Source: Nitrospira sp. (GTDB taxonomy: Bacteria > Nitrospirota > Nitrospiria > Nitrospirales > Nitrospiraceae). From it: a stretch of 64,000 nt of DNA. Made by a program: the position numbers and the translations under genes. The number at the start of each line of letters is the position of its first letter. The first letter of the stretch is position 1. Positions 33,301-53,419 of this stretch are shown in pieces. Under the pieces are notes generated by a model. It was not told where the DNA came from and ran no database searches. It saw only the letters and a list, made by a program, of their open reading frames with translations. The stretch spans positions 2,253,501 to 2,317,500 of the forward strand of contig BQWY01000001.1 in assembly GCA_036984305.1 (NCBI GenBank). Direction: 5' to 3'.

Positions 33301-35874
33301 ATGCTTCCACGCCTGACTGCCTGGTTTATCATCGGATTGGTGGCCGGCTCCTTCGTTCAACACGCACCCGTCCTGATCCTGGCCGTGCTCACCTTCACAG
33401 CGGCAGGGTTCGCGCTCCGTGAACGCGCCGAGGGCTTGCCGCGGGGCTCGTCCACCGCCGCCTACGGCGCGCTCTTGGTCGGTACCCTCTACTGGTCTCT
33501 CTTCACGGTGATTCTATCCCCCGCACCGCCCGTCGTTCCTGACTCCGAGGACAGCATCTCGATACGCGGCCGGATCGTCGCGCCTGTCAGCACCACACCC
33601 GATCGGATCATCGCGATTGTTGCGCCGTTGGATTCCCCGGAGCGACCGCACGTGCGCAAACTCCGTCTCACGTGGCGAATGCCCGATGCAGGCCTGGTGC
33701 AGGGAGATGTTGTTGTCGCCTTCACTTCGCGCGTCTCTGCTCCGCACGGCACACACAATCCAGGCGCCTTCGATTACGAGTCTCATCTTCGCCGGCGTGA
33801 CATAGACGCTCTCGCGTCAGTCTCCGGCGCGGGCGCAGTCCAGGTCATCGAGGCAGGATCGTCCTCCTGGCGATGGGCGCCGTGGTCCGGAATCGACCGG
33901 TGGCGACAGCAGATATACGCGGCCGCCGTCGAATCACTGAGCCCATCGACACAAGGCCTTTTCTTGGGCTTGGTCATCGGAGAACAAGGACTGATCGAGA
34001 CCCAGCGGCGGGAGGATTTCATTGCCACCGGCACCGTTCATATCCTCTCGATCTCGGGCTCCCATCTCGGGTTGATCTCCGTCGTCGCGTTCCTTTTTGT
34101 CCGATGGTCCTGCCGATGGCTCCCGACCACTGCAATTCTGACACTGAATCGACATCGTTTGAGTTCCAGCCGGATTGCCGCGTGCCTGACCGTTCCATTG
34201 ACCGGCACGTACGCGTTGTTAGCCGGCGGGGAGATCGCCACCTTGCGCGCCTTATTCATGATTCTGCTCCTCCTCCTCGCTCTGTGGCTCGGGCGCGAGA
34301 AGCGATTGCTCCCGGTCCTTTCTGCCGCCGCCCTGGTCACATTGATTGAGGACCCCCGAGTCCTCTACGACGTGTCATTTCAACTATCCTACGTCGCAGT
34401 CCTTGGGTTGGCATTGATGGCAGACCGACGAAGGGCGCGCTCGGACGAGGGCTTGCCTCCTGAGGAGGAGATGGACCGGACGACCATCCGGCAACGAGCA
34501 TGGAGGTGGGGAGTCGACACACTCAAGCTTTCGCTGGTCGTGACAGTCGTTACCTTCCCTTTGGTGGCGTGGCACTTCCATCAGTTTCCCTGGATCGGAC
34601 CTGTGGCGAATCTCGTGCTGTTGCCGATGACGGCACTGTTGATACCCCTCTGCCTGGGGTCTGCTGTCGTACTCATTCTGGGTGGGCCCGCCGAAGCATT
34701 ACCCCTCGCGTGGATCGTGGATCCGGCACTCCGCCTCATGGAACAGAGCCTCACGCTGCTTGCCATGCTTCCGGCCGTGAATTGGCACGTTGCGGCGCCT
34801 TCGCTGCTGACATTGCTGGTTTATTTCGGACTCCTGGCACTCCTGGCACATCCCGCCGTCATGCCTATCAGACGAGTCGCCGCAACCAGCTGTCTCGTGT
34901 TGCTCATCCTGTGGTGGCTCACACCGCATCGAACGCTGCCAGATGATGCCGTGCGGGTGACCATGATCGATGTCGGACAAGGCGATGCCACGCTCATTGA
35001 GATGCCGAACGGTGAAACGGTCTTGATCGACGCGGGAACCAGCCATGAACGCTTTGATGTCGGTGCTCGAATTGTGGCGCCTCTGTTGTGGGATCGCGGG
35101 ATTACGCATTTGGATCACGCCATCGGTACTCATCCGCAGCTGGATCATATTGGAGGGTTCCCGTGGCTGCTCAGACATTTCGAGGTACGACATTACTGGA
35201 GCACCCCGATGACGCGACAGGAACCATTCTTTGTCCGTCTCCAGGAAGCGTTGCGGGAACGTGGGTTGTCGCCCCTGATCCCCGAGAACGAAAGCATCCT
35301 GGCCTCCGGGGGTCCTTGCCGACTGGTGGCATTGAATCGCTCGAATTCGCACTCCTCCGTCGTACACACGGTGCGGTCTTCGCGGAATGGGACCGATCTG
35401 AACAATGCCTCACTCGTCACCAGGCTCGATTGCACCGGCTACACCATGCTGTTTCCAGCCGACATGGAAACAGCGGGATTGACACAGATGATGACGACGG
35501 GAAGTGTCGGGGCGGCCACCGTCATCAAAGTCCCGCATCACGGCGCTCGAAGTTCCCTGAATGAGCTTTGGCTTCATACCGTGCGGCCCCAAGTGGCGGT
35601 GCTATCGGCCGGTGCACACAATCCCTATCGGCATCCGGCCCAGGAGGTGCTAGCCGCCTATCGCCGGGCGAACGTGCCCCTCTTTCGGACCGACCGCGAC
35701 GGTGCCGTGACCCTCACTGGTTCCCTCATCGCTCCGACGATCTCCTTGACGACCACTCGACAAGGGGTGTTCGAAGCAGTCCCACTGACGCACGAATTGT
35801 GGTCGGCTGAACGACGCAACTATCGGCGTCTGTGCCAGCGCTACTTCGAGTCCTCTTGTCCGCTCCTCGGCTGA
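33301..35874 (+). CDS. comEC: ComEC/Rec2-type DNA uptake channel protein
   Basis: An 857-aa membrane protein with three regions: an N-terminal DUF4131-type part with an OB-like segment (to about 200), a multi-pass competence domain (about 215-540, with GLVIGEQGLI and SISGSHLGLI), and a C-terminal metallo-beta-lactamase-type domain (VTMIDVGQGDATLIEMPNGE, then HPQLDHIGGF near residue 610 and KVPHHGARSS). ComEC carries single-stranded DNA across the inner membrane. The MBL motif has Q where the family often has H or D. Other competence genes are not in this window. Confidence 0.92.
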   Translation: MLPRLTAWFIIGLVAGSFVQHAPVLILAVLTFTAAGFALRERAEGLPRGSSTAAYGALLVGTLYWSLFTVILSPAPPVVPDSEDSISIRGRIVAPVSTTPDRIIAIVAPLDSPERPHVRKLRLTWRMPDAGLVQGDVVVAFTSRVSAPHGTHNPGAFDYESHLRRRDIDALASVSGAGAVQVIEAGSSSWRWAPWSGIDRWRQQIYAAAVESLSPSTQGLFLGLVIGEQGLIETQRREDFIATGTVHILSISGSHLGLISVVAFLFVRWSCRWLPTTAILTLNRHRLSSSRIAACLTVPLTGTYALLAGGEIATLRALFMILLLLLALWLGREKRLLPVLSAAALVTLIEDPRVLYDVSFQLSYVAVLGLALMADRRRARSDEGLPPEEEMDRTTIRQRAWRWGVDTLKLSLVVTVVTFPLVAWHFHQFPWIGPVANLVLLPMTALLIPLCLGSAVVLILGGPAEALPLAWIVDPALRLMEQSLTLLAMLPAVNWHVAAPSLLTLLVYFGLLALLAHPAVMPIRRVAATSCLVLLILWWLTPHRTLPDDAVRVTMIDVGQGDATLIEMPNGETVLIDAGTSHERFDVGARIVAPLLWDRGITHLDHAIGTHPQLDHIGGFPWLLRHFEVRHYWSTPMTRQEPFFVRLQEALRERGLSPLIPENESILASGGPCRLVALNRSNSHSSVVHTVRSSRNGTDLNNASLVTRLDCTGYTMLFPADMETAGLTQMMTTGSVGAATVIKVPHHGARSSLNELWLHTVRPQVAVLSAGAHNPYRHPAQEVLAAYRRANVPLFRTDRDGAVTLTGSLIAPTISLTTTRQGVFEAVPLTHELWSAERRNYRRLCQRYFESSCPLLG

Positions 35875-36125
35875 GCTGACCCCCTGTACCTCTGCCAAAG
35901 CCCACCCGGCGCGGATTTGAGCCTGGTATCTTCCCGGTGACCCTGTGCCGTCTAGCCAAAAATGTAACCATCTTGGCAATTAACGACCCCCTCTGATGCG
36001 GTCGGACACAAATGTTCCAGTAAGCCGTTGAAACTCGGCAATATGTGCCGGTTGCGACCCTGGCACACCATGTGCTTTCACCTGCAAGCAGTTTGAGGGC
36101 TTTGTGACAGGAGGAAGCCGTTTCC
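35875..36125 (+). other. Regulatory region of the polysaccharide operon
   Basis: This 251-base gap between comEC and the RHH-like gene holds the sigma-54 promoter candidate at 36061-36076. Upstream are possible activator sites: GCCAA/TTGGC arms around 13 bases at about 35955-35977, and an AAATGT-CC motif occurring twice (in aaaaatgtaacc and acaaatgttcc). These are visual patterns only. Confidence 0.4.
36061..36076 (+). promoter_or_regulatory. Sigma-54 (RpoN) promoter of the polysaccharide operon
   Basis: TGGCACACCATGTGCT matches the -24/-12 consensus TGGCAC-N5-TTGCW at every fixed position but one (G for the first T of TTGC), with the right GG-GC spacing. The expected start is near 36087, about 39 bases before the ATG at 36126, which has a strong AGGAGG site. 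Sigma-54 control would require an activator ATPase, which is not encoded in this window. Confidence 0.65.
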
Positions 36126-36323
36126 ATGGGAAAGCACGTACGGGTGGTCATTCAGTTGCCAATGGAATTGAAGGAGCAACTCGACCGCCTGAAACAGAAG
36201 GGATACACCGCCAGTGGCTTCATTCGAGCCATGTTGGAGCGGGAGTTTGCCAGAGAGACACAATCAGAGACGAGCGAGGGGGCGGGAACTCCGGCCAAAG
36301 GCAGCAAGGCCATGGGTATGTAG
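36126..36323 (+). CDS. Small ribbon-helix-helix-like protein
   Basis: A 65-aa protein whose first 42 residues (HVRVVIQLPMELKEQLDRLK and a second helix GYTASGFIRAMLEREF) look like a ribbon-helix-helix DNA-binding fold: a beta strand with alternating residues followed by two helices. The tail is polar, Gly/Ser/Lys-rich and probably disordered. It has an excellent AGGAGG site and is the first gene after the sigma-54 promoter. It may autoregulate the operon; it could also be an antitoxin-like remnant, though no toxin gene is adjacent. Confidence 0.7.
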   Translation: MGKHVRVVIQLPMELKEQLDRLKQKGYTASGFIRAMLEREFARETQSETSEGAGTPAKGSKAMGM

Positions 36324-36360
36324 TCATACTTGGACTTCAACGCACCCGAGAGAGCCAGCG

Positions 36361-36519
36361 ATGAATCGAGCGCAACGTCCGAACCCCGTCACGGATGCCG
36401 GCGAGCATGGACATGCGGAGAGTCCATTACGGACGGATTATGCAGACCACCCGACGATGGCCGTAGGGCGGAGCAGGCGCTTACACGGTGCGACCGATAC
36501 CAAGGAAGGTCACGTATGA
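36361..36519 (+). CDS. Candidate 52-aa small protein coupled to wza
   Basis: An ATG at 36361 opens a 52-codon frame (MNRAQRPNPVTDAGEHGHAE at its start) whose stop TGA overlaps the ATG of the Wza-type gene as ATGA, the same four-base overlap used by many gene pairs in this locus. A weak GAGAG lies upstream. The peptide is hydrophilic, rich in His, Arg and Asp, with no known family. It may be a leader peptide that couples translation, or a chance frame. Confidence 0.35.
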   Translation: MNRAQRPNPVTDAGEHGHAESPLRTDYADHPTMAVGRSRRLHGATDTKEGHV

Positions 36520-37319
36520 TCAGGATGCCGCACACCAGTCTGACACGAGCCGCCATCCTCCTCGCGCTCGGAGTCAGCATACTGGCCTATCCAGGCTGCC
36601 GCAATCCCGCGCAATCTACCCTCCCGCCGTCGGCCATGGCCCCGCCCGGGACGCCGATGCCGCCACTGCCCAAAGGTGACGTCTACGCTGACGAAACAGC
36701 CGTCGCCTCCGACGCCCTCATCGAACCGGGGGATACGCTCGACGTGACCGTTCATCGTGGAGCCGGTGAAGAAAAGTTCTCGGCTACAGTTCGTGATACA
36801 GGGCGCATCACGTTCAACTTTGTCGATGTCTTCGTGCAGGGCTCAACCGTCGCGCAGGCCGAACAACGGATCGAGGAGGCGCTCACACCATACATGCGGA
36901 GTCCGAAGGCGTTAGTGGCGCTCAAGAAGCGAGGCGTCAAGGTGAAGCGGGTCTTCGTTTTCGGCGAAGTGAAAAAGCCGGGGGTCTATCCGATGGCCCG
37001 CAATATGACCGTCCTGCAGGCGCTGGCGGTCGCCGAGAACTACACGGAAACGGCACTGCTGGAAGAAATTCGAGTCGTACGCGGCGATCTCAATCAACCG
37101 AACATTTACACTGCCGATGTCGCCCGGATCATGACCTACGGGGATTGGACCCGGAATCTGACCTTGCAGGAGAACGATATCGTCTTCGTGCCACGCGAGC
37201 ACCTCGGTGATGCCTCCGAGGCGGCTAAGAAGCTGCAGCCGGTCATCCAGGCGATCGTCACGCCGCTGTATCCGACGTTCGCAATACCGTTGTTCTTCCC
37301 TGCAGCCCAGCTGCGTTGA
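36516..37319 (+). CDS. Wza-type polysaccharide export lipoprotein
   Basis: A 267-aa outer-membrane polysaccharide export protein. A signal sequence ends in a lipobox-like YPGC (C28). The Poly_export domain starts at ALIEPGDTLDVTVHRG and contains GRITFNFVDVFVQGSTVAQAEQRIEEAL in parts; a SLBB-type domain follows (VFVFGEVKKPGVYPM, MTVLQALAVAENY, ENDIVFVPR). It would form the outer-membrane channel with the Wzc-type protein next door. The ATG at 36516 has an AAGGAAGG site. Confidence 0.9.
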   Translation: MIRMPHTSLTRAAILLALGVSILAYPGCRNPAQSTLPPSAMAPPGTPMPPLPKGDVYADETAVASDALIEPGDTLDVTVHRGAGEEKFSATVRDTGRITFNFVDVFVQGSTVAQAEQRIEEALTPYMRSPKALVALKKRGVKVKRVFVFGEVKKPGVYPMARNMTVLQALAVAENYTETALLEEIRVVRGDLNQPNIYTADVARIMTYGDWTRNLTLQENDIVFVPREHLGDASEAAKKLQPVIQAIVTPLYPTFAIPLFFPAAQLR

Positions 37320-37364: not shown

Positions 37365-39503
37365 ATGGCCCAATACGAACTTGACGTCCTGGATTATTGG
37401 CTGATCCTGAAGAAGCGCAGGTCCATGATCGTCTTTTCGGCGGGACTCGTCCTCGCCTTTACGTTCCTCTTCACGCAACTGATGACTCCCGAGCCCATGT
37501 TCGAAGCGGCCGCGCGCGTCAAGTACGAGCGTACCAACGCCATGGCGCAGCAATTCGTGGAAGGCGCCAATTTCGCCAATCCGGCCGAACTGAGCACCCA
37601 AACGGAAGTGATCAAGGGCTTTCAAGTCATGGAGCGGGTCGCACAGGATCTCGGCATCGTCGATGCCACCCCGACACCGGACGTGCGTGGCTCGGCCGAA
37701 TATCTCAATACCATCTACAATCTTGGGCAAAGTATCCAGACCACGCGAGAGCCCGAAACCAATATCATCCGCATTACCGCCCAGTCGGACAATCCCCTCC
37801 GAGCCCAGCGAATGGCCAACAGTGTCGCCACGGCGTACCGCGTCGAAAATATCGCCGCACGCAACCGGATCGTGACGGAATCCCGCCGGTTCGTCGAGGC
37901 TCAGCTGGCTGGGCTTGAAGCGAATCTCGAAGAAGCCGAGCATCGCCTGCGCGAATTCAAGGAGCGCGAAGGCCAGGTTTTCCTGGACGAGGAGGCGAAA
38001 ACCGCCTTGTCGATGTTTTCTCAACTGGAAGGGGAGTTGAACTCAGTGACTCGGCAGAAAGAAGACGCCTCGCGCCAAATCGACGCCGTGAGAAAGAAAG
38101 CGTCGACCCCGGCAGACGTCACAGGGCGCATCTTCACCGAGGACCATCAGGCCTTGCTGGCCAAGCTGAACGCACGCTTGATCGAACTGAAGCAGGAGTG
38201 GTCGACGCTCCTGCTCAACTACACGCCGAATCACCCGAAAGTGAAGGAGCTCGTCCGGAAGATCGACAACGTCAAGGGGGAGATGATCCAGGAACTCAAT
38301 TCCAAGGTGAAAACCCTCGAGGGGCGAGAGGCGGATCTGACGGTGCAGATCGATCGGTATCGCGCGCGATATTTGGCGTTTCCCAAAGCCGCCATCGAGC
38401 TGACCCGCCTCGAACGTGACGTGAAGATGAATGCCGATCTCTACTCCAGCCTGAAGATCAAGCATCAGGAATTGCTGATCAAGAGCGCGGAACAGATTGA
38501 AGAGGTGACCATCATCGCACCGGCCGTCAAACCGGACGCACCGACCAACACCCCGAACACTCCGATCAACCTCGCCGTGGGGTCGATTATGGGCGTGTTT
38601 CTCGGGATCGTCATGGCGTTCGCGCGCGAGTCGTTCGACACGTCCATCGGGACGATCGAAGGCGTCGAGGAATTTCTCAAGGCTCCGGTCTTGGGCGTGA
38701 TCCCGAAGTTCGACGACGACGAGCTTCAAGAGGCGGCGCGTACGGCGCTTCCGATGCTATCCGACAAGGACATGACGGACAGCGTTTCCAAATTGGTCAC
38801 GCTGTTGCAACCCAAGTCGCTCATTTCGGAGAGCTTTCGATCGCTCCGAACGAACCTTCAATTCGCCAGTATCGATCGGCGGGTCAAATCTCTCTTGTTT
38901 ACCAGCGCAGGCTTGGGCGAGGGCAAGAGCACGACGGTCATCAACCTCGCGATTACCCTGGCCCAAGAAGGTCAGCGTGTGCTCCTCGTGGACGCCGACT
39001 TGCGTCGACCGGTTATTCACCGGCGGCTCGGACTTCCATTGGGACCCGGCTTGCAGGATGCACTGCAGGGTTCCCGCACGTGGCAGGAGTTGATCCATCC
39101 CGCATCTCACTTTCTGAAGGGGAAGATCGGACACAATTCTCCCCTCGGTAGCCCGGGACTGGAAAACCTTCACGTCCTGACCAGCGGCGCCACCACGCAA
39201 CAAGCCGGGGAGTCGATGAGCCTGGCAAAGATGCGGCCTTTGATGAATGAAATGCAGTCGGCTTACGACATCGTCCTCTACGATACCCCCCCCATCTTGC
39301 CGGTGACGGACGCCGTGGCCATGAGTTCTCGGGTGGACGGAACGATCATCGTGTACCAGGTTGGGCGCATCGGCCGGAACGCGTTGAAACGGGCGAAATT
39401 CTTGCTGGCTCACGCTCAAGCCAATATCATGGGAGTGGTGCTCACGAACGTGAAGGCCGAGATTGCCCCCGAAGCGAGCTTCTATCGCTACGAGTATCGG
39501 TAA
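37365..39503 (+). CDS. Wzc/GumC-type polysaccharide copolymerase with tyrosine autokinase domain
   Basis: A 712-aa inner-membrane protein that controls chain length and export. An N-terminal Wzz domain with a membrane segment (about 25-42), a long periplasmic coiled-coil region (about 180-390), a GNVR-like stretch and a second membrane segment (about 405-425) precede a cytoplasmic BY-kinase domain: Walker A GLGEGKSTT (near 515), Walker A' LLVDADLRRP (near 540), Walker B LYDTPPI (near 635). The C-terminus has only three tyrosines (Y707, Y709, Y711) in a short cluster. A strong GGAG-rich site precedes the ATG. Confidence 0.93.
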   Translation: MAQYELDVLDYWLILKKRRSMIVFSAGLVLAFTFLFTQLMTPEPMFEAAARVKYERTNAMAQQFVEGANFANPAELSTQTEVIKGFQVMERVAQDLGIVDATPTPDVRGSAEYLNTIYNLGQSIQTTREPETNIIRITAQSDNPLRAQRMANSVATAYRVENIAARNRIVTESRRFVEAQLAGLEANLEEAEHRLREFKEREGQVFLDEEAKTALSMFSQLEGELNSVTRQKEDASRQIDAVRKKASTPADVTGRIFTEDHQALLAKLNARLIELKQEWSTLLLNYTPNHPKVKELVRKIDNVKGEMIQELNSKVKTLEGREADLTVQIDRYRARYLAFPKAAIELTRLERDVKMNADLYSSLKIKHQELLIKSAEQIEEVTIIAPAVKPDAPTNTPNTPINLAVGSIMGVFLGIVMAFARESFDTSIGTIEGVEEFLKAPVLGVIPKFDDDELQEAARTALPMLSDKDMTDSVSKLVTLLQPKSLISESFRSLRTNLQFASIDRRVKSLLFTSAGLGEGKSTTVINLAITLAQEGQRVLLVDADLRRPVIHRRLGLPLGPGLQDALQGSRTWQELIHPASHFLKGKIGHNSPLGSPGLENLHVLTSGATTQQAGESMSLAKMRPLMNEMQSAYDIVLYDTPPILPVTDAVAMSSRVDGTIIVYQVGRIGRNALKRAKFLLAHAQANIMGVVLTNVKAEIAPEASFYRYEYR

Positions 39504-39560: not shown

Positions 39561-41012
39561 ATGGTTACCCTCGAAGACAGTGCTCCACGCGCTCATCTCC
39601 TGCTGCCCCTGGCATTAACGGTCCCCGTCGCCGCCCTCGCCGCGCTGGCTCCGCCGACCATTGCTCTTGGGGCTTTGCTTGTCGTCATGCCGCTCTTGAT
39701 TTCGTTCTTGGCACCTACCGCAGGCCTGTATCTGTTGGTCTTCTCCATGCTGTTGGGCCCGGAATTCGTCGTAGGACATTTGGGCACGGACGTCACACGG
39801 AGCCGCGGCTTGACCCTTCGGCTTGACGACGTGTTGTTGGTCCTGGTTGGACTGGGCTGGCTCGGCCGGCTCGCGACCTCACGCCGCGCCCGAACCTTGG
39901 TGCGGACGCCGCTGAATCGGCCGATCATGTGGTATGTGACCGGATGCGTCCTCGCAACATTGCTCGGGGTCGCCGCCGGTCGCGTTCGTCCGACGACGGG
40001 ATTTTTCTTCCTGCTCAAGTACTACGAGTACTTTTTCATTTTCTTCATGACCGTGAACATCGTGACTCACGAAAAAGACATCCGCCATCTCGTCACGGCT
40101 TGTTTCGTGACGTGCGCGGTGGTCTCACTGTATGCCATTGCACAGATCCCCTCCGGCATGCGGGTATCCGCCCCGTTCGAAGGACATGAAGGGGAGCCGA
40201 ACACGTTGGGCGGGTACCTCGTGTTTCTGAGCGCGCTCGCGGCTGGTTTTCTGCTGACGCCCGGCGCCGCACCGCGGAAATGGCCCCTGTTGGCTCTCCT
40301 CGCGATCATTGGCGTCGCCCTTCAAGCCACGCTGTCGCGCGCATCGTTCCTCGCAGCCGCCGTCGTCCTGATCGGGATCTTGGTCGTCGTGCGTCGCCGC
40401 AATCCGGTGCTGGTGGTCGTGATTCTCCTCGGCATGATGGCCATCCCGCTGACGGCACCGCAGGCGGTCATGGATCGCGTGCTGTACACCTTCATGCAGC
40501 CGAAAGAGGACGGGCAAATCCAGGTTGGACACGTCCGAATCGACACGTCGACCTCCGAGCGATTTCGATCCTGGCAACAGTCGGTCGAGGTCTGGAAGAA
40601 ATCCCCGCTCTGGGGGCATGGGGTGACCGGTGGACCCTTCATGGATGCCATGTATCCGCGAGTCTTGACCGAGGCGGGTCTCATCGGCTTGAGCACGTTC
40701 GGATTGTTGATGATCGGCATTTGGAAAGTCGGGTATCGAGCCAGAGAGTCGCTGAGCCATCCCTACGGACGCGGTCTGGCATTGGGTTTCCTCCTCGGAT
40801 TTGTCGGCCTCCTTGTGCATGCCATCGGCTCGAACACGTTCATCATCGTACGGATCATGGAACCCTTCTGGCTCGTGACGGGCTTAATGGTCAGAAGCCT
40901 CATCCTGGAGGAGTCCCGACGCGCCACTCCGCCCGCCAGCACCGACGAGCCGCAGCAGTTCATGTCCTTTCACGAGATGCCTGGAGCGACGTTCGGGTAT
41001 CGCTCCCGATAG
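39561..41012 (+). CDS. Wzy-like O-antigen polymerase/ligase family membrane protein
   Basis: A 483-aa protein with about eleven hydrophobic segments and one large periplasmic loop (about residues 310-375, containing SERFRSWQQSVEVWKKSPLWGHGVTGG), the layout and motif of the O-antigen ligase/polymerase (Wzy_C) family. In a Wzx/Wzy locus its likely job is polymerising lipid-linked repeat units at the periplasmic face. Ligase activity cannot be excluded. It follows wzc by 57 bases. Confidence 0.85.
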   Translation: MVTLEDSAPRAHLLLPLALTVPVAALAALAPPTIALGALLVVMPLLISFLAPTAGLYLLVFSMLLGPEFVVGHLGTDVTRSRGLTLRLDDVLLVLVGLGWLGRLATSRRARTLVRTPLNRPIMWYVTGCVLATLLGVAAGRVRPTTGFFFLLKYYEYFFIFFMTVNIVTHEKDIRHLVTACFVTCAVVSLYAIAQIPSGMRVSAPFEGHEGEPNTLGGYLVFLSALAAGFLLTPGAAPRKWPLLALLAIIGVALQATLSRASFLAAAVVLIGILVVVRRRNPVLVVVILLGMMAIPLTAPQAVMDRVLYTFMQPKEDGQIQVGHVRIDTSTSERFRSWQQSVEVWKKSPLWGHGVTGGPFMDAMYPRVLTEAGLIGLSTFGLLMIGIWKVGYRARESLSHPYGRGLALGFLLGFVGLLVHAIGSNTFIIVRIMEPFWLVTGLMVRSLILEESRRATPPASTDEPQQFMSFHEMPGATFGYRSR

Positions 41013-41017
41013 GGCTC

Positions 41018-42544
41018 ATGGCTATTGCACCAATTCCACGCCTCACCGCGCGGCAAGGTCACGATCCTCGTAAAAGCGACCTCAGCCCTCCCCCGAACCT
41101 TCCCACACACGTGGTTCAAGGCGGAGTCCTGCTGGGGGGCCAGCGCCTCGTTGGACTGACCGTGTCCGGATTGGGCAGCATTTTTCTCGCCCGCTGGTTG
41201 ACGCCGGAGATTTTTGGAACGTACGCGATCCTCTGGTTCTGTATTGCGCTCGCGATCAACGTCTCGGAGATGGGCCTCACGGCCGCCTTGTTATTGCAGC
41301 CCGAAAGCCGCCTTCGCAAGGAATTACCGTCGGTCGCCACGGCTCAACTTCTTGTCATGGTGGCCCTGGCGGCTGCGATGGCCGCGACCACGCCTGTCCT
41401 CATCGACTGGTTAGGACTTGGACCGGAAGCCGCCTGGCCGTTGCGTGCGATGGCCGTGCTGCTCCCACTCTCCGCGTTGCGGTTGGTGCCGGCAGTGAAA
41501 CTCGAGCGCCGGCTCTATTACATGCCGCTTACCATCGCAGACACCATCGACACCATCGTGTTCTATAGTGTTGCGGTTGCAGCGGCCTATGCTGGAGCCG
41601 GACTCTGGAGTTTCGTCATCGGCATTCTGGTCGGGCGGGTGACGAGCATTACCAGCCTCTGGGTGCGTGAACCCTGGTGGCCGATTCTGCCTATTCCGTG
41701 GGGCGAGTGGCGATGCACGATCCGCCGAGGTTGGGCCTTTCAATCCACCGCCATGCTGGTACAAGCCCGAGAGGCCGTGGCCCCGATCCTCGTCCGTCAC
41801 CTCGCCGGGGTCCCTGCCGTCGGCCTGCTCAATCTCGCCTCAGCCCTTGCGCTTCAAACCGTACAAATGACGAATGTCGCTACTCGAGTCCTGTTTCCCA
41901 CCTTCGTACGCCTGCGAGAGGATGACGCGGCCTTTGGAGCAGCCTGCGAGCGCGCCCTGAATCGCGTCGCGGTCATCATCGTCCCGGCGACCGCGTTCCT
42001 CTGTGCGACAGCCGACCCGTTTGTTCGTCTCGTCTACGGTACAGGTTGGACCGCGGCGATTCCATCGGTTCGACTCTTTTGCCTGTCTGCCTTGGCAGGT
42101 GGTCTCACCATGGTGGCCATCCATGCCTTGAATGCTCTTGGGCATGCGTCCGTCGTCTTCCGCCTCAATCTGTGGTGGACGATCCAACTCTGGGTGCTCA
42201 CGCTGATTCTGGTCGTCCCGTTGGGATATGTCGGCTTTGCCGTTGCCCATGTGATTCAAGGGTTGGCCAGCACGCTGGCTTTTCATCATCTTCGGCGACT
42301 GCGACCCGTTCGTGTGCTCGCGCAGCTGCAAGCCCCCTGTACAGCCGCAGCGCTCGTCGCGGCCGTGTTGTATGTTCTGACGCCCTGGCTGAGGAATCTG
42401 GTCTTGTTGGCCGGAGCCGTATCCGTCGCCGTCGCCGTCTACCTCTGCCTGCTCACACTGTTGAGCGGCTCCACGTGGCGCGCCGAAATCTGGCGCGAAT
42501 GGAGGCACGTCGTGGACGCTCGTTGGAGCCATGGCCTGTCATGA
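41018..42544 (+). CDS. Wzx-type oligosaccharide flippase
   Basis: A 508-aa membrane protein with 12-14 hydrophobic segments of the polysaccharide-transport MOP superfamily. The start region VVQGGVLLGGQRLVGLTVSGLGSIFLARWLTPEIFG (given in parts) is the typical first helix pair, and RVLFPTFVRLREDDAAF and FPLYGTGWT-like GTGWTAAIPSVRLFCLSAL segments recur in this family. It would move the lipid-linked unit across the membrane. The ATG at 41018 is six bases after the polymerase stop; its stop overlaps the next start (ATGA). Confidence 0.87.
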   Translation: MAIAPIPRLTARQGHDPRKSDLSPPPNLPTHVVQGGVLLGGQRLVGLTVSGLGSIFLARWLTPEIFGTYAILWFCIALAINVSEMGLTAALLLQPESRLRKELPSVATAQLLVMVALAAAMAATTPVLIDWLGLGPEAAWPLRAMAVLLPLSALRLVPAVKLERRLYYMPLTIADTIDTIVFYSVAVAAAYAGAGLWSFVIGILVGRVTSITSLWVREPWWPILPIPWGEWRCTIRRGWAFQSTAMLVQAREAVAPILVRHLAGVPAVGLLNLASALALQTVQMTNVATRVLFPTFVRLREDDAAFGAACERALNRVAVIIVPATAFLCATADPFVRLVYGTGWTAAIPSVRLFCLSALAGGLTMVAIHALNALGHASVVFRLNLWWTIQLWVLTLILVVPLGYVGFAVAHVIQGLASTLAFHHLRRLRPVRVLAQLQAPCTAAALVAAVLYVLTPWLRNLVLLAGAVSVAVAVYLCLLTLLSGSTWRAEIWREWRHVVDARWSHGLS

Positions 42545-43584
42545 GTCACCCCGATCCTTCTGCGTCGGTGATCGTCCCCGTATTGAACGCATCCAGGACT
42601 TTGCCGGCCTGTCTGGAGGCACTGAGCCGCCTCCGTCCTCGACCATTCGAAGTCCTGCTCATCGATAACGGCTCAACGGACGGCAGTCGAGACATCCTAC
42701 AGGCATTCGTACAGCGGCATCCCAGTTGGGTACGACTACTCGAGGAGGGCCGTCGCGGCGCCTCCGCGTCCCGCAATGCGGGAGCATGGCGCGCACATGG
42801 GGATATTCTGGTCTTCACGGATGCGGACTGCGCTCCGCGCACGGATTGGCTGGAGCAACTCCTCCCTCCGTTTTGTGATCCTTCGGTCGGGGCGGTGGCG
42901 GGCCGGATCGAGGCGACTTCGTCGGGCTCGACGCTCCAACTCTTCAGCGCGCTGTACACGCTGCAATCATCGCCGGAGCCATCCAGACATACTCAGTGGA
43001 CGCCCACCTCCGGCGGCTTCCCGACGGCAAATCTCGCAGTGCGGCGGCCGGTCATGGAGCGCCTGCGCGGATTCGACGAATCGATCGTGATTTACGGCGA
43101 GGACTACGATCTTTGTGCCCGCATTTATCACGAGGGGTACTCCATCGCGTACCGGCCCGGCGCCGTGGTGGTACACGACCACCGGACCAGCGTGTGCGCC
43201 GTCGTGCGCCAAGCCTTCGGATTCGGCCGGAGTCATGCCTACCTGCTTCGCAGACATACCCGCGCACGACTGTGGCTGGAGTGGCCCCAGCGAGCCATCG
43301 CATCCGTGCCGAGCCCTTTGCGTGGATGGGTCAATCCCGTCTCGGCGGACAAGAAATTGCTCTGCTTTCTTCTGGCCGGATTCCTTTGGAGACCCCTCTG
43401 GATATTCCTGCCGCTGTACGCCGTCTGGCTGGGTTGGGATGCCCGCCGCCGGGCCGTGTGCCACGGCAGGGCGGTATCCCTCGTGACGATCATCCAACTG
43501 GCGGGACTCCATCTCATCAAGGCGTCTGCCATGACGGCGGGACGCTGGATGGGTTCCCTTCGATACGGGGTCATGTGTTTGTAG
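42541..43584 (+). CDS. Family 2 glycosyltransferase
   Basis: A 347-aa GT-A glycosyltransferase. The N-terminal VIVPVLNASRTLPACLEAL and IDNGSTDGS, the metal-binding D94-A-D96 in VFTDADCAP, and the acceptor-base block GEDYDLCAR (E187, D188) are clear. The last 80 residues contain two hydrophobic segments, so it is probably membrane-attached. It overlaps the flippase gene by four bases. Donor and acceptor sugars cannot be predicted. Confidence 0.9.
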   Translation: MSHPDPSASVIVPVLNASRTLPACLEALSRLRPRPFEVLLIDNGSTDGSRDILQAFVQRHPSWVRLLEEGRRGASASRNAGAWRAHGDILVFTDADCAPRTDWLEQLLPPFCDPSVGAVAGRIEATSSGSTLQLFSALYTLQSSPEPSRHTQWTPTSGGFPTANLAVRRPVMERLRGFDESIVIYGEDYDLCARIYHEGYSIAYRPGAVVVHDHRTSVCAVVRQAFGFGRSHAYLLRRHTRARLWLEWPQRAIASVPSPLRGWVNPVSADKKLLCFLLAGFLWRPLWIFLPLYAVWLGWDARRRAVCHGRAVSLVTIIQLAGLHLIKASAMTAGRWMGSLRYGVMCL

Positions 43585-43622
43585 CAGCCTGACGGCTGCG
43601 CCCACGATACAACAGGGACTCT

Positions 43623-44675
43623 ATGCATCAGACTCTTCCTCAGGCCGCACCCCCCGCCGCAACGGTGCCCTTGGTTTCGATCGTCATCTGCACCAAAGAT
43701 CGACCGCGTGAACTGGTGCGGGCGATCGAATCGGTGCGGGCATGCGGAGCGATGGGACGGACCGCAGAGATTATCGTCGTGGAGGAGTCCGACCTCCCCA
43801 CGGCCGTCACGGGAGTTCGTCACGTTTCGCACCGCCGGCAGGGCGGGGGATTCGGGCAGACGCGGAACGCCGGCGTACGTTTCGCTCACGCCCCGTACAT
43901 CGTATTTTTCGACGACGATTGCGAGGCCGAAGCCGGATGGCTCGAACGTCTCTTGGCACCGCTCGAACAGGACGCGACCATCCTCGGCGTGGCCGGTTCC
44001 GTCCTGGTTCACAATTGCGGAACAATCGGCTACGCGGAAAATATTTTGGGCTTTCCCGGGGGCGGTCTCCGCTACGTGCACGAGGCCCGCGGCCGAACGG
44101 TACCCACTCAGGTACTCTCTACGTGCAATTGCGCCTATCGACGAGAGGCCTACCTGCAAGCCGGTGGGTGTCCGGAAGATCCTCTCTATCGAACTCCTGG
44201 GGGAGAGGACTTCGTCCTGGCCGAACGCATCCGTCGCCTGGGCCGATGTGTCTATGTGCCGGATGCCGCCGTCTATCATCGCCCGCGTGGAAGTCTGAGG
44301 TCGATCGCGCGATGGTTTGCGGGGCGCGGGCGGAATGAGATACTCGCCCTGCTCTCGACACCGGATCCCAAGTCATTCGGAGCGTTCCTCTTGCGTAGCT
44401 CGTGGACGGTACGATTCGTCGCGCTTGTCGGGGTCGTGTTCTGGCAGCCGTCCCTGATCCGGTGGCTTCCTGTATGTCTGGTCGTCTATTTTGCCGCCAT
44501 GCTGTGGCGATACCGATTCGCCCGCGCCTATGCCTCGCACCGTCGCGCGTGGTGGGTCGTTCCTCTCGTAAAACTCACGATGGATCTCGGGACGGAAGTC
44601 GGGCGATGGCAAGGGCTGACCGGACTCCTTCGCTCGACCATTCTCCCCACTCCCGCAGGATCCCCGCGTATATGA
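43623..44675 (+). CDS. Family 2 glycosyltransferase
   Basis: A 350-aa GT-A enzyme, related to the preceding one: VSIVICTKDRPRELVRAIESV, FFDDDCEAE (D97-D99) and GGEDFVLAERIRRLG. Two hydrophobic segments near residues 260-305 suggest membrane association. Thirty-eight bases separate it from the previous gene, including a short GCAGCC/GGCTGC hairpin. Its stop overlaps the methyltransferase start (ATGA). Confidence 0.9.
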   Translation: MHQTLPQAAPPAATVPLVSIVICTKDRPRELVRAIESVRACGAMGRTAEIIVVEESDLPTAVTGVRHVSHRRQGGGFGQTRNAGVRFAHAPYIVFFDDDCEAEAGWLERLLAPLEQDATILGVAGSVLVHNCGTIGYAENILGFPGGGLRYVHEARGRTVPTQVLSTCNCAYRREAYLQAGGCPEDPLYRTPGGEDFVLAERIRRLGRCVYVPDAAVYHRPRGSLRSIARWFAGRGRNEILALLSTPDPKSFGAFLLRSSWTVRFVALVGVVFWQPSLIRWLPVCLVVYFAAMLWRYRFARAYASHRRAWWVVPLVKLTMDLGTEVGRWQGLTGLLRSTILPTPAGSPRI

Positions 44676-45709
44676 CCACGGCACTTGCACCGCTGCAGCG
44701 CGATGTCGCACCTCTCCTCGACGGTGACGTCGGAATCCATTGTCCCCTCTGCGCAGGCGGGGTCGGCATGCCCCTGCTGTGGGGCCGCGACATGATGTAC
44801 GATCGGCTGGATCGCTTCGCTGTGGTGGCATGCCGATCCTGCGGTTTTCTCCAAAGCTGGCCGTATCTTTCTCCGGAAGCGCTCGGCCGATACTACCCCG
44901 AGTCCTATTTCGCTCCTGTGCGCAGGACGGAGCGTCCTCATGAAGCCGACTGCCTGCTGGCACTCGGCCGTCGGCTGTACGCCCGGCTGCAGCGTGGCGA
45001 CTCGTGCTCACGGTTGGCCTGCCGCGTACCTCCCAAATGGATCGATCTAGCCCTTCCATCCCATGCCGAGCCAGGTCTGCCGGCGGGGCGGTTGCTCGAT
45101 GTCGGATCGGGCAGTGGACGATTCCTCGCAGGCGCGCTGAGCCTCGGGTGGCACGTCGAAGCGCTGGATGCCGGTGCAAAGGTCGATGAGGTAGGACAGG
45201 TCCTCGGTATCCCGGCGCATCAAGGAACTCTTGACCGGATCGTTGGGCGGCTCAGGCCGGGTTTCGACCTGGTCAGCTTCAATCACGTGTTGGAACACGT
45301 GGCGACACCGCTCGAGACGTTGAAAGCCGCTCGGCGTCTGCTGTCACCGGGGGGTGTCGTTCGGGTTCAAGTGCCGCTCTGGCGTCCCTGGTGCGCCAGA
45401 CTGTTCGGCATCTACTGGTCGTCGTTGGACCTGCCGCGGCATCGGTGGCATTTCAGGGTGGAGGACATTGCCTGTCTGTCGAGGCTGGCGGGATTTGGCC
45501 GCCTCCTGTTCCTCCCCGAGACCGGTACGCACATTCTCACCAGCAGCGTCCGCCTCTGGCTACGCCACCACCCGGCCTGGCGACGATGGGAATCGTGGGC
45601 GTCGGTCGACAACCGCGCATTGCGACGGGCCACGTATCCGCTGGGGTTGGCTGCCGCACTGCTGCGCCGCCCGTTCGAAGGGACGTTTTACCTGATGGAC
45701 GGCCCATGA
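44672..45709 (+). CDS. SAM-dependent methyltransferase with zinc-ribbon-like N-terminus
   Basis: A 345-aa class I methyltransferase. The SAM-binding motif is RLLDVGSGSGRFLAG (about 141-154), and SFNHVLEHVATPLETLKAARRLL (in two parts) is the later Methyltransf_11-type block. The N-terminus has paired cysteines C24/C27 and C54/C57, like a small zinc ribbon. It probably methylates a sugar or lipid-linked glycan in this pathway. It overlaps both neighbours by four bases. Confidence 0.85.
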   Translation: MTTALAPLQRDVAPLLDGDVGIHCPLCAGGVGMPLLWGRDMMYDRLDRFAVVACRSCGFLQSWPYLSPEALGRYYPESYFAPVRRTERPHEADCLLALGRRLYARLQRGDSCSRLACRVPPKWIDLALPSHAEPGLPAGRLLDVGSGSGRFLAGALSLGWHVEALDAGAKVDEVGQVLGIPAHQGTLDRIVGRLRPGFDLVSFNHVLEHVATPLETLKAARRLLSPGGVVRVQVPLWRPWCARLFGIYWSSLDLPRHRWHFRVEDIACLSRLAGFGRLLFLPETGTHILTSSVRLWLRHHPAWRRWESWASVDNRALRRATYPLGLAAALLRRPFEGTFYLMDGP

Positions 45710-46611
45710 CCGAATGCCCCACGATCAGTGCGATTGTCCTCATTCGAAACCATGCACCGCATATCCGGCCTTGCCTGGCCACACTTGCGTGGGTCGACGA
45801 GATTGTGGTGGTGAGTGACGGGAGCGAAGACGGGAGCGTCGCAATCGCGCGGGAATTTTCCAATGCCCGCGTCGTGCACCGCGCACTGGGGGAGGACTGG
45901 TCGGCCCAGATGAATTTCGGCCTGGACCAGGCAACCAGCGCATGGCTGTTCCAGATCGACGTCGACGAGCGCGTACCGAGCCCACTGGCCGCAGAGCTGC
46001 AACGGCTTATTCATCGGACGGATATTAACGGGATCAATCTACGCATCCTTGGCGATGTCTTCGGACATCTCCAGGGCCACCGTTCCGACAGTGGACGCGC
46101 CGTGCGGCTCGTTCGGCGTGGACGGGGTCGATTCGAAGCCAAACGCGTCCACGCGCGGCTTCAGGTGAACGGACGGGTCGCCGCCGCCCAGGAAGTCCTG
46201 GTGCATCTGGGACCATTTCCGACCGTGGAAAGCTATTGGACGAAGAACGCGTTCTACGCCCGGCTCGAAGCGGCCACCAACCTCGAACGAATGGAGCGAT
46301 CGCCCAGGAATTCGTGCGGGACCGCGATGATCGAGGCGTTGCTAAAACCCATGATGGTCTTTCTCAAGAAATATGTCTTCGAGGGCGGCTGGCGCGAGGG
46401 CCTGTTCGGCCTGCACTATTCGATCATGCGCGCCATCGGCTATTACATGGTGGCGGTGGCTTCGTGGGAACGTCGACAGCAGAGACGCAGTGCCCTGCGA
46501 GCCTATTGCCTGGCAGAGAACATTCCGTATTTGGACCCGACTCCCGTTCCATCACTCCCTCGAGCCGATTCCGTCCCCTCAAAACCAGCCCGGATGGCTT
46601 CCAATCGGTAA
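45706..46611 (+). CDS. Family 2 glycosyltransferase, WaaE/KdtX-like
   Basis: A 301-aa GT2 protein of the lipopolysaccharide-core beta-glucosyltransferase type: ISAIVLIRNHAPHIRPCL, VSDGSEDGS, and D85-V-D87 in QIDVDERVPSPLAAEL. The C-terminal part (KPMMVFLKKYVFEGGWREGLFGLHY in pieces) is the conserved tail of this group. It overlaps the methyltransferase by four bases. Confidence 0.88.
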   Translation: MTECPTISAIVLIRNHAPHIRPCLATLAWVDEIVVVSDGSEDGSVAIAREFSNARVVHRALGEDWSAQMNFGLDQATSAWLFQIDVDERVPSPLAAELQRLIHRTDINGINLRILGDVFGHLQGHRSDSGRAVRLVRRGRGRFEAKRVHARLQVNGRVAAAQEVLVHLGPFPTVESYWTKNAFYARLEAATNLERMERSPRNSCGTAMIEALLKPMMVFLKKYVFEGGWREGLFGLHYSIMRAIGYYMVAVASWERRQQRRSALRAYCLAENIPYLDPTPVPSLPRADSVPSKPARMASNR

Positions 46612-46748
46612 TCGATGGCCAGGCCGTATATGGCTGCAAATCGGTTTTTGGTTCGAGTCCGCCCCATCATCCGGTACCATGAGTCCTGATCCGACCGGAT
46701 CGGAGCCATGCTCGTGTTCTTCGCAAAGTCAAGGTGTTAGCAGCTCGC

Positions 46749-47858
46749 ATGTCGATTTCCGTCACGCCGGTGCTCTACGTATCTCATCATGCCGACATTG
46801 TCGGTGGTGGGGAAATCAGCCTGCTCCATCTGGCCGAGCGTCTGGACCGCACGCGCTGGTGCCCTCTGATGGTGCTGCCTGGGCAAGGGGCAATGGCGGC
46901 CGAGTGTCGGCGTCGCGACATCGCGACGTTCATCCTGCCCATGCCGACCTGCCGGCGGTTCGGTAAGGACATGCGCGCCAGTGTGACGCGACTACGGGAG
47001 ATCATCCGTGTGACGGATGCCTCCGTGCTCCATGCCAACGGCTCCCGGGCCATGATGTATGCGGGAATCGCCGGCCGCCTGGAAGGACGCCGCGTGGTGT
47101 GGCACGTGCGCGTGGCGCAGCCGGATGGATTCATCGATCGAGTGCTGGCCCGACTGGCGCATCGCATCGTCGTGAATTCGCAGGCCGTGGCGGCGCGCTT
47201 CGGCTTCGTTTCTCCCAATCGACTTCTGTGCATTTATAACGGAATCGATCTCGATGCCTATGCTCCGGCCGTACCCCATTCCGCCGACGCCGTGCGCCGC
47301 CAACTCGGGGTGCCCCTGAACGTGCCGATGGCCATGAGTATCGGACGGATGACTTCGGAGAAAGGTCAGGGCTACCTGCTCGAGGTGGCACAGCGTTTGG
47401 CCGCGGCGATGCCTGATTTGTATTGGGTGTTGGTGGGCGATGGCAAGGAACGGGCGGTGCTCGAAACGCGCTGCAAAGAAATGGGGCTCGACGATCGAGT
47501 CCGATTTCCAGGTTGGCTCACCGACATCCCCGCCGCACTCGCCGCGTGCGATCTCTTCGTTCTCCCGTCGGTCAGCGAAGGATTTGGTCGGGTGCTCGTC
47601 GAAGCCATGGCCATGCGGAAAGCCGTCGTCGCCAGCCGAACCGGTGGAGTTCCGGAAGTCGTCGTGCCGGGCGAGACAGGCATTCTCGTCCCGCCCGCCA
47701 ACCCCGACGCGTTGGCCCGAGCCGTTGGCGCGTTGATCGCCAATCCACAGTTGGCCGAATATTTCGGACAGAACGGCCGCCTGCGGGTGGAAGACCGTTT
47801 CACCCTCTCCCACCACGTACAGGCGGTGAGCGGGGTCTACGACGCCTTGGTGGCCTGA
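46749..47858 (+). CDS. Family 4 glycosyltransferase
   Basis: A 369-aa GT-B enzyme. The N-terminal VGGGEISLLHLAERL glycine-rich loop, the nucleotide-sugar region SIGRMTSEKGQGYLLEVAQRL and the EX7E motif PSVSEGFGRVLVEAMAMRKAVVASRTGGVPE (cited as its SEGFGRVLVEAM core) define a retaining GT4. The ATG at 46749 is preferred; an in-frame GTG lies at 46734. A 137-base gap precedes it, without a clear promoter. Confidence 0.9.
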   Translation: MSISVTPVLYVSHHADIVGGGEISLLHLAERLDRTRWCPLMVLPGQGAMAAECRRRDIATFILPMPTCRRFGKDMRASVTRLREIIRVTDASVLHANGSRAMMYAGIAGRLEGRRVVWHVRVAQPDGFIDRVLARLAHRIVVNSQAVAARFGFVSPNRLLCIYNGIDLDAYAPAVPHSADAVRRQLGVPLNVPMAMSIGRMTSEKGQGYLLEVAQRLAAAMPDLYWVLVGDGKERAVLETRCKEMGLDDRVRFPGWLTDIPAALAACDLFVLPSVSEGFGRVLVEAMAMRKAVVASRTGGVPEVVVPGETGILVPPANPDALARAVGALIANPQLAEYFGQNGRLRVEDRFTLSHHVQAVSGVYDALVA

Positions 47859-47902
47859 TCACACTGCTGCCGGTCCTCGTCATGCACAGGGGCTGAAGGG
47901 AG

Positions 47903-49015
47903 ATGAACACCATCCGAGTCGGATTCGACGGTCGTGAGTTGCAGCCCGGCGTCCGTACGGGGATCGGACGGTACCTCCGCGAAGTGTTGCGAGCGGGCGA
48001 GCGGGCTGGCTGGGACTGCATCGTGTACGGCGATCGCTCCACGGCTCTCCCAGCCGACATCGCCGCGCTGCCCTTGAAACGATTGAGGCCGCGCCTAAGC
48101 CAGTGGTGGGATCAGATCAGCCTGCCGCGCTCGCTGGCTCGCGACCGGGTTTCAGTTTTTCTCTCGCCGTATTATAAGGGTCCGATACGGGCCGCCTGCC
48201 CAACCGTCATTACGATTCACGATCTGTTGTTCATCGAATACCCCGGGCGGCGGCGCCCCGTGTACGACTGGGTCATGACCCGCTTGGCTTGTCTGTATGC
48301 CGACACCGCTCATGCCATCATCGCCGATTCGGAATACTCCAAACGTGCCATCGTCACACGGCTCGGGATGGCCGCCGACAAAATCACGGTGATTCCCGTG
48401 GCGCTCGGATCCGAGTTTCGGCCAATGACTCCTTCCGATACCGTGTCCGCCACATATGAATTGCGTGCTCCCTACATCTTGACCGTCGGGAATTTTCTTC
48501 CGCACAAGAACATGCCGCGTCTGGTGGAAGCGTACTCCCGCCTGCCGGCGACGTTGCGCGGCCGCTACCGTCTCGTCCTGGCGGGCCGTCCAAACGACCA
48601 TGCGTCGGCGCTGGCCCGCACGATCGAGACGCTCGGTCTGTCCAATCGCGTGTCGTTCCCCGGCCCTATTGCAGACGAGGACTTGCCGGCCCTGTATGCA
48701 GGCGCCTCGCTGTTCGTCTTTCCGTCGCTGGAGGAGGGCTTCGGCTTACCCGCACTTGAAGCGCTCGCCTGCGGAACGCCCGTAGCCGCCTCGAATCGCG
48801 CGTCCATTCCGGAGGTTGTCGATACCGCAGCGATGCTGTTCGATCCCGAAGACGTGGGCGCAATGACGGTGGCCATGGAACAGATTTTGACCGACCACGA
48901 CCTTCGCGAACGTCTCCGCCGCGACGGTCTCGCGCAGGCTCAACGATTCACTGCGGAACGTACGACGGGGCAGGTGATCCGCCTCATCGAGCGCGTTGCG
49001 GCCGAGGCGGCCTGA
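47903..49015 (+). CDS. Family 4 glycosyltransferase
   Basis: A 370-aa GT4 of the mannosyltransferase-like group: FDGRELQPGVRTGIGRYLRE at the N-terminus, DLLFIEYPGRR, TVGNFLPHKNMPRLVEAY and the EX7E core SLEEGFGLPALEALACGTP. A GAAGGGAG site precedes the ATG. It lies between two other modification and transfer genes of the locus. Confidence 0.9.
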   Translation: MNTIRVGFDGRELQPGVRTGIGRYLREVLRAGERAGWDCIVYGDRSTALPADIAALPLKRLRPRLSQWWDQISLPRSLARDRVSVFLSPYYKGPIRAACPTVITIHDLLFIEYPGRRRPVYDWVMTRLACLYADTAHAIIADSEYSKRAIVTRLGMAADKITVIPVALGSEFRPMTPSDTVSATYELRAPYILTVGNFLPHKNMPRLVEAYSRLPATLRGRYRLVLAGRPNDHASALARTIETLGLSNRVSFPGPIADEDLPALYAGASLFVFPSLEEGFGLPALEALACGTPVAASNRASIPEVVDTAAMLFDPEDVGAMTVAMEQILTDHDLRERLRRDGLAQAQRFTAERTTGQVIRLIERVAAEAA

Positions 49016-49048
49016 GATGACTGGGGCCTCGACGAATCGGATATCGCA

Positions 49049-49909
49049 ATGACGGAAGCCGTGGCCTGTGCATGCCATCACCATCTGGCATATGCCAGAC
49101 GACTCGAGTCCGGGCTGGAGTTGCTGGAATGTCAAGGATGCGGACTGTACGCGCGGCGTGATCTTCCCGCAGCGGATCGGCTCGCGGCTCATTACCGTAC
49201 AGAGTATTGGGTCCGGTATGCAACTGAGCAGACGACAGATGCGCGGGCCAACGTGTTTCGTCACGTGATGAAGCGTGTACGCGAACACCACCCCCGCGAG
49301 GGATCTCTTTTGGACGTCGGGTGCGGTCCGGGTCTCTTGCTCGATCACGCCGGGGCAACCGGATGGTCGGGCGTTGGGATCGAGCCCTCCATGGAGGCCG
49401 CCAGAATCGGACAACAGGCCGGACGCCACATCATCGTCGGGGAGTGGCCGGAGATCGAGTGGCCGGATCAATCGACAGACGCCGTCGTATTCCTCAACGT
49501 CCTGGATCACCTGCGCCATCCCGTCGCCGCCATGCAGGCTGCCTGGAGAGTCCTGCGTCCGGACGGCGTCGTGTACCTGCGCGTGCCGAACGGTCCGTTT
49601 CACGTACGACTGCTGGCGCATCGATGGCCGACGGCGGTCTCGCGGCTGTCGGTCTTCCATCTTTATGGGTTCGGTGCCAAAGCCCTACGGACACTCTTGA
49701 ACGGTGTGGGATTCGTCGACGTTGCCGTCCGCACGGCCCCGCTCAGTCAGCAGGATGCGTATGTCGCCGAGGCCTGCCGCAGCGATTGGAGCCGCCGGAT
49801 CACCAAAGCCGGGCTGGCCGCCGGCTACCGCGTCGCGTCCGCAGTCGGACTGGATCGGTATCCATGGGGCCCTTCGCTCGAAGCGATCGCCGTCAAGCGG
49901 GGAGGGTAA
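49049..49909 (+). CDS. SAM-dependent methyltransferase with cysteine-rich N-terminus
   Basis: A 286-aa class I methyltransferase. The SAM loop is SLLDVGCGPGLLLD (about 86-99) and VVFLNVLDHLRHPVAAM the later motif. Cysteines C7, C9, C28 and C31 near the N-terminus resemble the zinc-binding leader of C-methyltransferase-like proteins, as in the other methyltransferase of this locus. Likely target: a sugar or glycan of the pathway. Confidence 0.85.
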   Translation: MTEAVACACHHHLAYARRLESGLELLECQGCGLYARRDLPAADRLAAHYRTEYWVRYATEQTTDARANVFRHVMKRVREHHPREGSLLDVGCGPGLLLDHAGATGWSGVGIEPSMEAARIGQQAGRHIIVGEWPEIEWPDQSTDAVVFLNVLDHLRHPVAAMQAAWRVLRPDGVVYLRVPNGPFHVRLLAHRWPTAVSRLSVFHLYGFGAKALRTLLNGVGFVDVAVRTAPLSQQDAYVAEACRSDWSRRITKAGLAAGYRVASAVGLDRYPWGPSLEAIAVKRGG

Positions 49910-49913
49910 ATCG

Positions 49914-50111
49914 ATGAGGTGGTTGTCGGCCGGATGGCGCCGGCGGCTGAAATGGAGCGAACTGATCGTCGTGCTCGCCCTGCTGACCGCGTGCCTGGCC
50001 ATGGGAGTGAGCTATTTCCTGCGAACCTACTACGGACACAACGCGAACGGGTACGAGCCCTTCGATACGCAGCGTGAACAACAGATGCAGAAATCTTCCA
50101 CAGGGCATTAG
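49914..50111 (+). CDS. 65-aa single-pass membrane protein
   Basis: A small protein with a basic N-terminus (RWLSAGWRRRLKW), one hydrophobic segment at about 17-36 and a polar tail. It starts four bases after the methyltransferase stop, with a GGGAGGGTAAATCG site, and ends 14 bases before asnB. The tight spacing and good ribosome binding site make it likely real. No family is recognised; it could be a small subunit or an anchor for a pathway complex. Confidence 0.6.
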   Translation: MRWLSAGWRRRLKWSELIVVLALLTACLAMGVSYFLRTYYGHNANGYEPFDTQREQQMQKSSTGH

Positions 50112-50125
50112 GGACCTGAGACACG

Positions 50126-53253: not shown

Positions 53254-53419
53254 GGAGCAGGGTGAGATGAGAGACATGCCACGTGCCTGGTGCTGCCTAC
53301 AGGACCTTCCACGCGTAAGACCTCGTTCAGTCCTTCTGGACACGCGATGGGGGCTCACCCTTCAGCACTCAAAGTCCCGCATTCAGCATTCCGGACGTGC
53401 ACGCCACTGCGGGTCATGA
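53254..53419 (+). other. Intergenic gap inside the polysaccharide locus
   Basis: A 166-base gap in an otherwise tightly packed operon. It holds two near-identical ten-mers, TTCAGCACTC (53361-53370) and TTCAGCATTC (53382-53391). No promoter or gene is recognised. Confidence 0.4.

Follow-up and report, generated by a model that had tools for sequence, protein, structure and literature searches.

Nitrifiers of the Nitrospira type live in flocs and biofilms, but the accessible parts of the open-access literature yielded no description of how the genes for their matrix are turned on. The window, i.e. the whole 64-kb stretch of Nitrospira sp. DNA analysed here, raises this question at a defined place, an intergenic region of about 251-252 nt between a comEC-like gene and a 65-aa gene (rhh), which stands at the head of a polysaccharide locus (Table 1). 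A first-pass annotation had proposed that a sigma-54 (RpoN) promoter in this region commands the entire locus. We asked whether the proposed site is a genuine promoter, and how far downstream its control would extend.

Consensus match at the head of the polysaccharide locus

The -24/-12 match, announced with correct spacing and one mismatch, was borne out: TGGCACACCATGTGCT (36061-36076, plus strand) has the GG-N10-GC spacing and departs from TGGCACNNNNNTTGCW only by a G for T in TTGC. About 33 nt separate the end of the -12 box from the ribosome-binding site, and 49 nt separate it from the ATG at 36126; the predicted transcription start, at about 36087, lies 39 nt 5' of this ATG. A sigma-70 type promoter had been named as evidence that would speak against the proposal, and no sigma-70-like match was found at 35700-36700. 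The search for known RNA elements returned one sub-threshold match, located outside this region.

By itself, the consensus match is weak evidence, and matches of this kind are not enriched in the genome over the control. Allowing up to two mismatches, the window contained 26 matches versus 23.9 expected, and allowing up to one mismatch the genome contained 149, fewer than the 192 obtained with the reversed pattern, a result that favors an intergenic sequence resembling the consensus by chance. The chance of a match within the intergenic region and on the right strand was 0.0034. Exact matches were found at eight positions in the genome, five of them outside ORFs of at least 150 aa. Two exact sites are only 4 kb apart and outside long ORFs (L028 and L029; G000:C1:568919 and 572752), one of them 215 nt before a response-regulator-like ORF, and a near-consensus site (L037; G000:C1:63923) was detected 20 nt before an ORF that appears to resemble lpxC.

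The genome carries one copy of rpoN, the absence of which had likewise been listed as an argument against the promoter, and about 23 strong sigma-54 AAA+ activator domains, most of them with GAFTGA-type motifs. The first-pass annotation had seen no activator gene in the window, and indeed no AAA+ activator gene was found in its 64 kb. In relatives, 20 stretches of some 20 kb each, 3' of the element, likewise contained none near the locus, and neither did 35 named contigs. Nitrogen and surface contact had been put forward as possible signals, and the results spoke neither for nor against them.

Table 1. Features of the polysaccharide locus and of its upstream region (positions in the window).
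Feature	Position	Strand	Basis
comEC-like competence gene, upstream border of locus	33301..35874	+	Pfam Competence PF03772
Candidate activator (enhancer) site TTGGCAATTAACGACCCC; family consensus approximately tGgCnaAatTtnGcCa	35973..35990	.	palindrome model
Second palindrome-like candidate GGACACAAATGTTCCA	36004..36019	.	8.8 bits with the same matrix; weak
Conserved box AAGCCGTTGAA; family form approximately AAGTCNTCAATWTT	36022..36032	.	fixed register in 36 divergent representatives
Candidate -24/-12 (sigma-54 type) promoter TGGCACACCATGTGCT	36061..36076	+	consensus match and family comparison
Ribosome-binding site AGGAGGAAG	36109..36117	+	sequence
rhh, 65 aa, ribbon-helix-helix-like, first gene after promoter	36126..36323	+	sub-threshold RHH_5/RHH_1
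Wza-like polysaccharide export protein	36516..37319	+	PF02563 Poly_export, SLBB
Wzc-like chain-length determinant / tyrosine autokinase	37365..39503	+	PF13807, PF02706, TIGR01007
Remaining polysaccharide locus	39561..59851	+	Pfam; synteny partial in relatives
mtnA-like gene, downstream border of locus	59878..60906	+	PF01008; synteny

Conservation of the element and of an upstream palindrome

Weak as the consensus match is alone, the family comparison decides for a real promoter. The upstream regions of 76 orthologous rhh loci from the family Nitrospiraceae, the window counted, were compared; named genomes of Nitrospira, including N. moscoviensis, belong to this family. The pattern GGCAY-N6-TGCW was present in 75/76 regions, 34-65 nt 5' of the rhh start codon, with a shuffled rate of 0.2% (0.002); this is an unselected count, yet the GGCAY/TGCW pattern was learned from the same data, and only GG-N10-GC, found with fixed spacing in 75 loci, had been set beforehand. 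Spacers other than 6 gave 0-2 matches in the same regions, and no match to the pattern was observed at -400 to -150 of the rhh start in the 76 orthologous regions. In a set of 36 divergent representatives, sharing less than 75% likeness, the average for the element was 1.6 bits per column versus 0.07-0.11 in the flanks. GGCA and TGC were invariant even in the most diverged representatives, including the window, an invariance that is partly by construction, as GG/GC picked the sites and GGCAY was favored.

Most relatives have an extended form of the element, TGCTAGCAAGGCAYAGCATGTGCA. The extended pattern RGGCAYAGCNYRTGCA gave 90 matches in 89 of the 175 family genomes, about one per genome, versus about 12 for the reversed control. 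All the matches whose surroundings were read were located at the comEC locus, except L208, which has another context; in a further exception, L140, the element is 119 nt from the assigned start. The spacer AGC and the upstream GCTAGCA are conserved in most relatives far beyond what sigma-54 needs. Both are absent from the window; in the window and in G131, its nearest relative, only the -24/-12 bases are kept, and the sequence reads TGGCACA, nearer to the textbook consensus. In view of the 75/76 loci with fixed spacing and position, and of the further blocks conserved in register, a chance resemblance is extremely improbable.

An activator-like palindrome accompanies the element. The palindrome model, trained on 40 upstream regions, reached log-likelihoods of 104-135 versus 19-40 for shuffles, and the palindrome mostly starts about 88 bp before the -24 GG (about 80 bp in one group). 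The window copy, TGGCAATTAACGACCC, is in register at -88 (p = 0.0042). Palindromes had been proposed 85-120 bases upstream; these correspond in part to the conserved palindrome, which was found at 71-88 bases 5' of the promoter site. The window has a second, weaker candidate, located 30 bp 3' of the first and nearer the promoter, and a conserved box (approximately AAGTCNTCAAT) lies between palindrome and promoter, some 40 bp 5' of the -24 GG. In genus g13, the local form of the palindrome was present at this promoter in all the genomes checked (n = 15/15) and was rare elsewhere in them, with few scattered matches at two mismatches only. Activator sites are usually found 80-150 bp upstream of sigma-54 promoters, according to the accessible text of PMC5552954; the palindrome at about 88 bp fits such a site in place and form, and we regard it as a candidate.

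About 90 genomes of the Nitrospira family have this element and palindrome at the same place in the chromosome, in most cases 5' of the small regulator gene and matrix-polysaccharide genes, with the reservation that these relatives share ancestry and conservation therefore overstates the independent evidence. With the -24/-12 positions kept and the palindrome in register, the sigma-54 reading of the first-pass annotation holds: judged from sequence comparison, the 16 bases very probably form a genuine, lineage-conserved sigma-54 (RpoN) -24/-12 promoter.

Genes behind the probable promoter and possible reach of its control

Matches to rhh were found in 108/175 family genomes. Its best RHH_5 scores were 17-19 bits versus a cut-off of 26 (E 0.001-0.005), and its product may be a DNA-binding regulator. 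About 20 same-strand genes, mostly tightly spaced, follow the promoter in the window. Beyond wza and wzc they include Wzy_C, flippase, glycosyltransferase, methyltransferase, asparagine synthase-like, WbqC, PIG-L, DegT-like and WecA-like genes. Within the locus, the 54652-56157 region encodes a CehA/McbA-like metallohydrolase, scoring below cut-off. The interval between rhh and wza (36324-36515 in the window) is without the HD-GYP-like gene that relatives have there; a 40% homolog is located elsewhere in the genome of the window (G000:C1:2422404). The protein of the relatives (HD_5, E = 5e-24) contains QEHERWDGRGYP and has Met in place of the Lys of HDxGK, and its assignment is putative.

The order comEC - element - rhh - HD-GYP-like gene - wza - wzc - polysaccharide genes was observed in most relatives, and comEC was the upstream border in all the compared lineages. 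The slot from comEC to mtnA-ndk (35875-59877 in the window) is variable, holding a polysaccharide locus of about 20 genes here, two genes in g13 and only rhh in g14. The genus g14 lacks polysaccharide genes and has the order comEC - element - rhh - mtnA - ndk, and g13 has comEC - element - glycosyltransferase-like gene - degT - mtnA - ndk (three stretches checked). Read from its sequence, the g13 gene after the element looks like a glycosyltransferase; a Pfam search with the first 110 residues had no match at 1e-5. A total of 16 g13 loci had the element and no intact rhh, and four of them (L211, L216, L221 and L224) had decayed rhh remnants 3' of an intact element.

This variation bears on whether the element could be an operator, through which the ribbon-helix-helix protein controls its own gene, and not a promoter. 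Ribbon-helix-helix regulators frequently control their own genes, and the element accompanies rhh in most genomes, contains palindrome-like pieces (GCTAGC and GCANNTGC) and has spacer bases conserved past the need of sigma-54. However, the 16 g13 loci carry the element without an intact rhh, and both the window and G131 lack GCTAGC while keeping the -24/-12 bases. The element thus outlives the polysaccharide genes in g14 and rhh in g13, which fits a promoter at a variable site and not an rhh-specific operator. We consider a pure operator improbable, although operator and promoter roles could go together.

Taking the element as a promoter, its control of rhh is likely, and the question is what lies beyond. 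The promoter may serve rhh alone, the polysaccharide genes being expressed mainly from other promoters. The genus g14, which retains element and rhh without any polysaccharide genes, and the 192-nt gap after rhh in the window both speak for this, and internal promoters could be accommodated in the 120-220 nt gaps within the locus. On the other hand, neither a terminator-like site nor a sigma-70-like match was found between rhh and wza, and g13 retained the element 5' of the glycosyltransferase-like gene after the decay of rhh. We regard a promoter restricted to rhh as possible but rather unlikely. Whole-locus control, as originally claimed, was upheld in part: the long row of same-strand genes agrees with it, whereas the nearest target is the small regulator and g14 lacks the polysaccharide genes, so that control of the entire locus is plausible.

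The preferred reading, a sigma-54 promoter that reaches past rhh, would operate as follows. RNA polymerase with RpoN would bind at 36061-36076, and an AAA+ enhancer-binding protein at 35973-35990, some 88 bp 5' of the -24 GG, would open the complex. The resulting transcript, from about 36087, would start with the small ribbon-helix-helix-like regulator, and read-through would carry the polysaccharide export and assembly genes, possibly as one transcript across the whole locus. More tentatively, and with less than even confidence, we suggest that this is a dedicated sigma-54 switch with roughly one target per genome, ancestral to the Nitrospira family, in which one activator, one palindrome and one promoter jointly drive matrix export, the ribbon-helix-helix regulator and the HD-GYP-like protein, and which stays as a regulator unit once the polysaccharide genes are lost. 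A promoter at one chromosomal site in so many genomes, including that of the cultured Nitrospira moscoviensis, offers a defined target for finding the activator, the signal and the RpoN-dependence of the matrix.

Relation to known sigma-54 systems

In PMC1569441, PEP-CTERM genes are preceded by a sigma-54 motif, with an activator motif that ends in TTTACA and is located 32-92 nt before the promoter motif. The PrsK/PrsR/RpoN regulon (PMC1569441; Aquincola, PMC9850573) resembles the present case in combining a -24/-12 element with a conserved upstream activator motif at matrix-related genes, and differs from it in that its targets are PEP-CTERM protein genes and its activator motif, going by the text description, appears to be another one. 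The Nitrospira promoter could belong to this proteobacterial regulon, given the similar logic of a sigma-54 motif and an upstream activator site tied to exopolysaccharide (PMC1569441), and given that the Wza and Wzc proteins resemble those of XrtA systems, below cut-off. Nevertheless, the motif is reported in Proteobacteria only (PMC1569441), its TTTACA-ending activator site is unlike the palindrome found here, as far as its text description sets the two apart, and PrsR was below cut-off both in the genome of the window and in G131, which makes membership very improbable. PrsR was also rejected as the activator at this locus (TIGR02915, 446.8 bits versus a cut-off of 502.6); the sub-cut-off protein has GSFTDA in place of GAFTGA, and PrsR scored above cut-off in 33/175 genomes, neither the genome of the window nor G131 being among them. 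In Aquincola, the exopolysaccharide biosynthesis genes seem not to be regulated by RpoN (PMC9850573).

In Burkholderia cenocepacia, RpoN and BerB drive berA and, through it, the Bep exopolysaccharide (PMC5552954), a case similar to ours in that a sigma-54 promoter serves a regulator gene linked to an exopolysaccharide cluster. BerA, which responds to c-di-GMP, turns on the bep genes, and the gene for BerB lies close to the cluster (PMC5552954), whereas the Nitrospira regulator is ribbon-helix-helix-like and encoded by the gene that opens the row, and the presumed activator is unlinked. AmrZ/AlgZ of Pseudomonas (PMC6478803) likewise connects a ribbon-helix-helix regulator with exopolysaccharide genes, a likeness that we take as resemblance only.

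A survey of sigma-54 and the cell exterior (PMC3162934) associated sigma-54 sites with exopolysaccharide genes in many phyla; it shares with our analysis the comparative evidence and the exopolysaccharide link, is general in scope, and its accessible text gave no statement on this promoter. The accessible part of the N. moscoviensis transcriptome study (PMC6606698) mentions sigma-54 regulators for the nitrite oxidoreductase genes only, and no report of this promoter in Nitrospira was found in the accessible open-access literature. Sigma-54 control of polysaccharide genes is known elsewhere, and what would be new is its probable instance at this Nitrospira locus.
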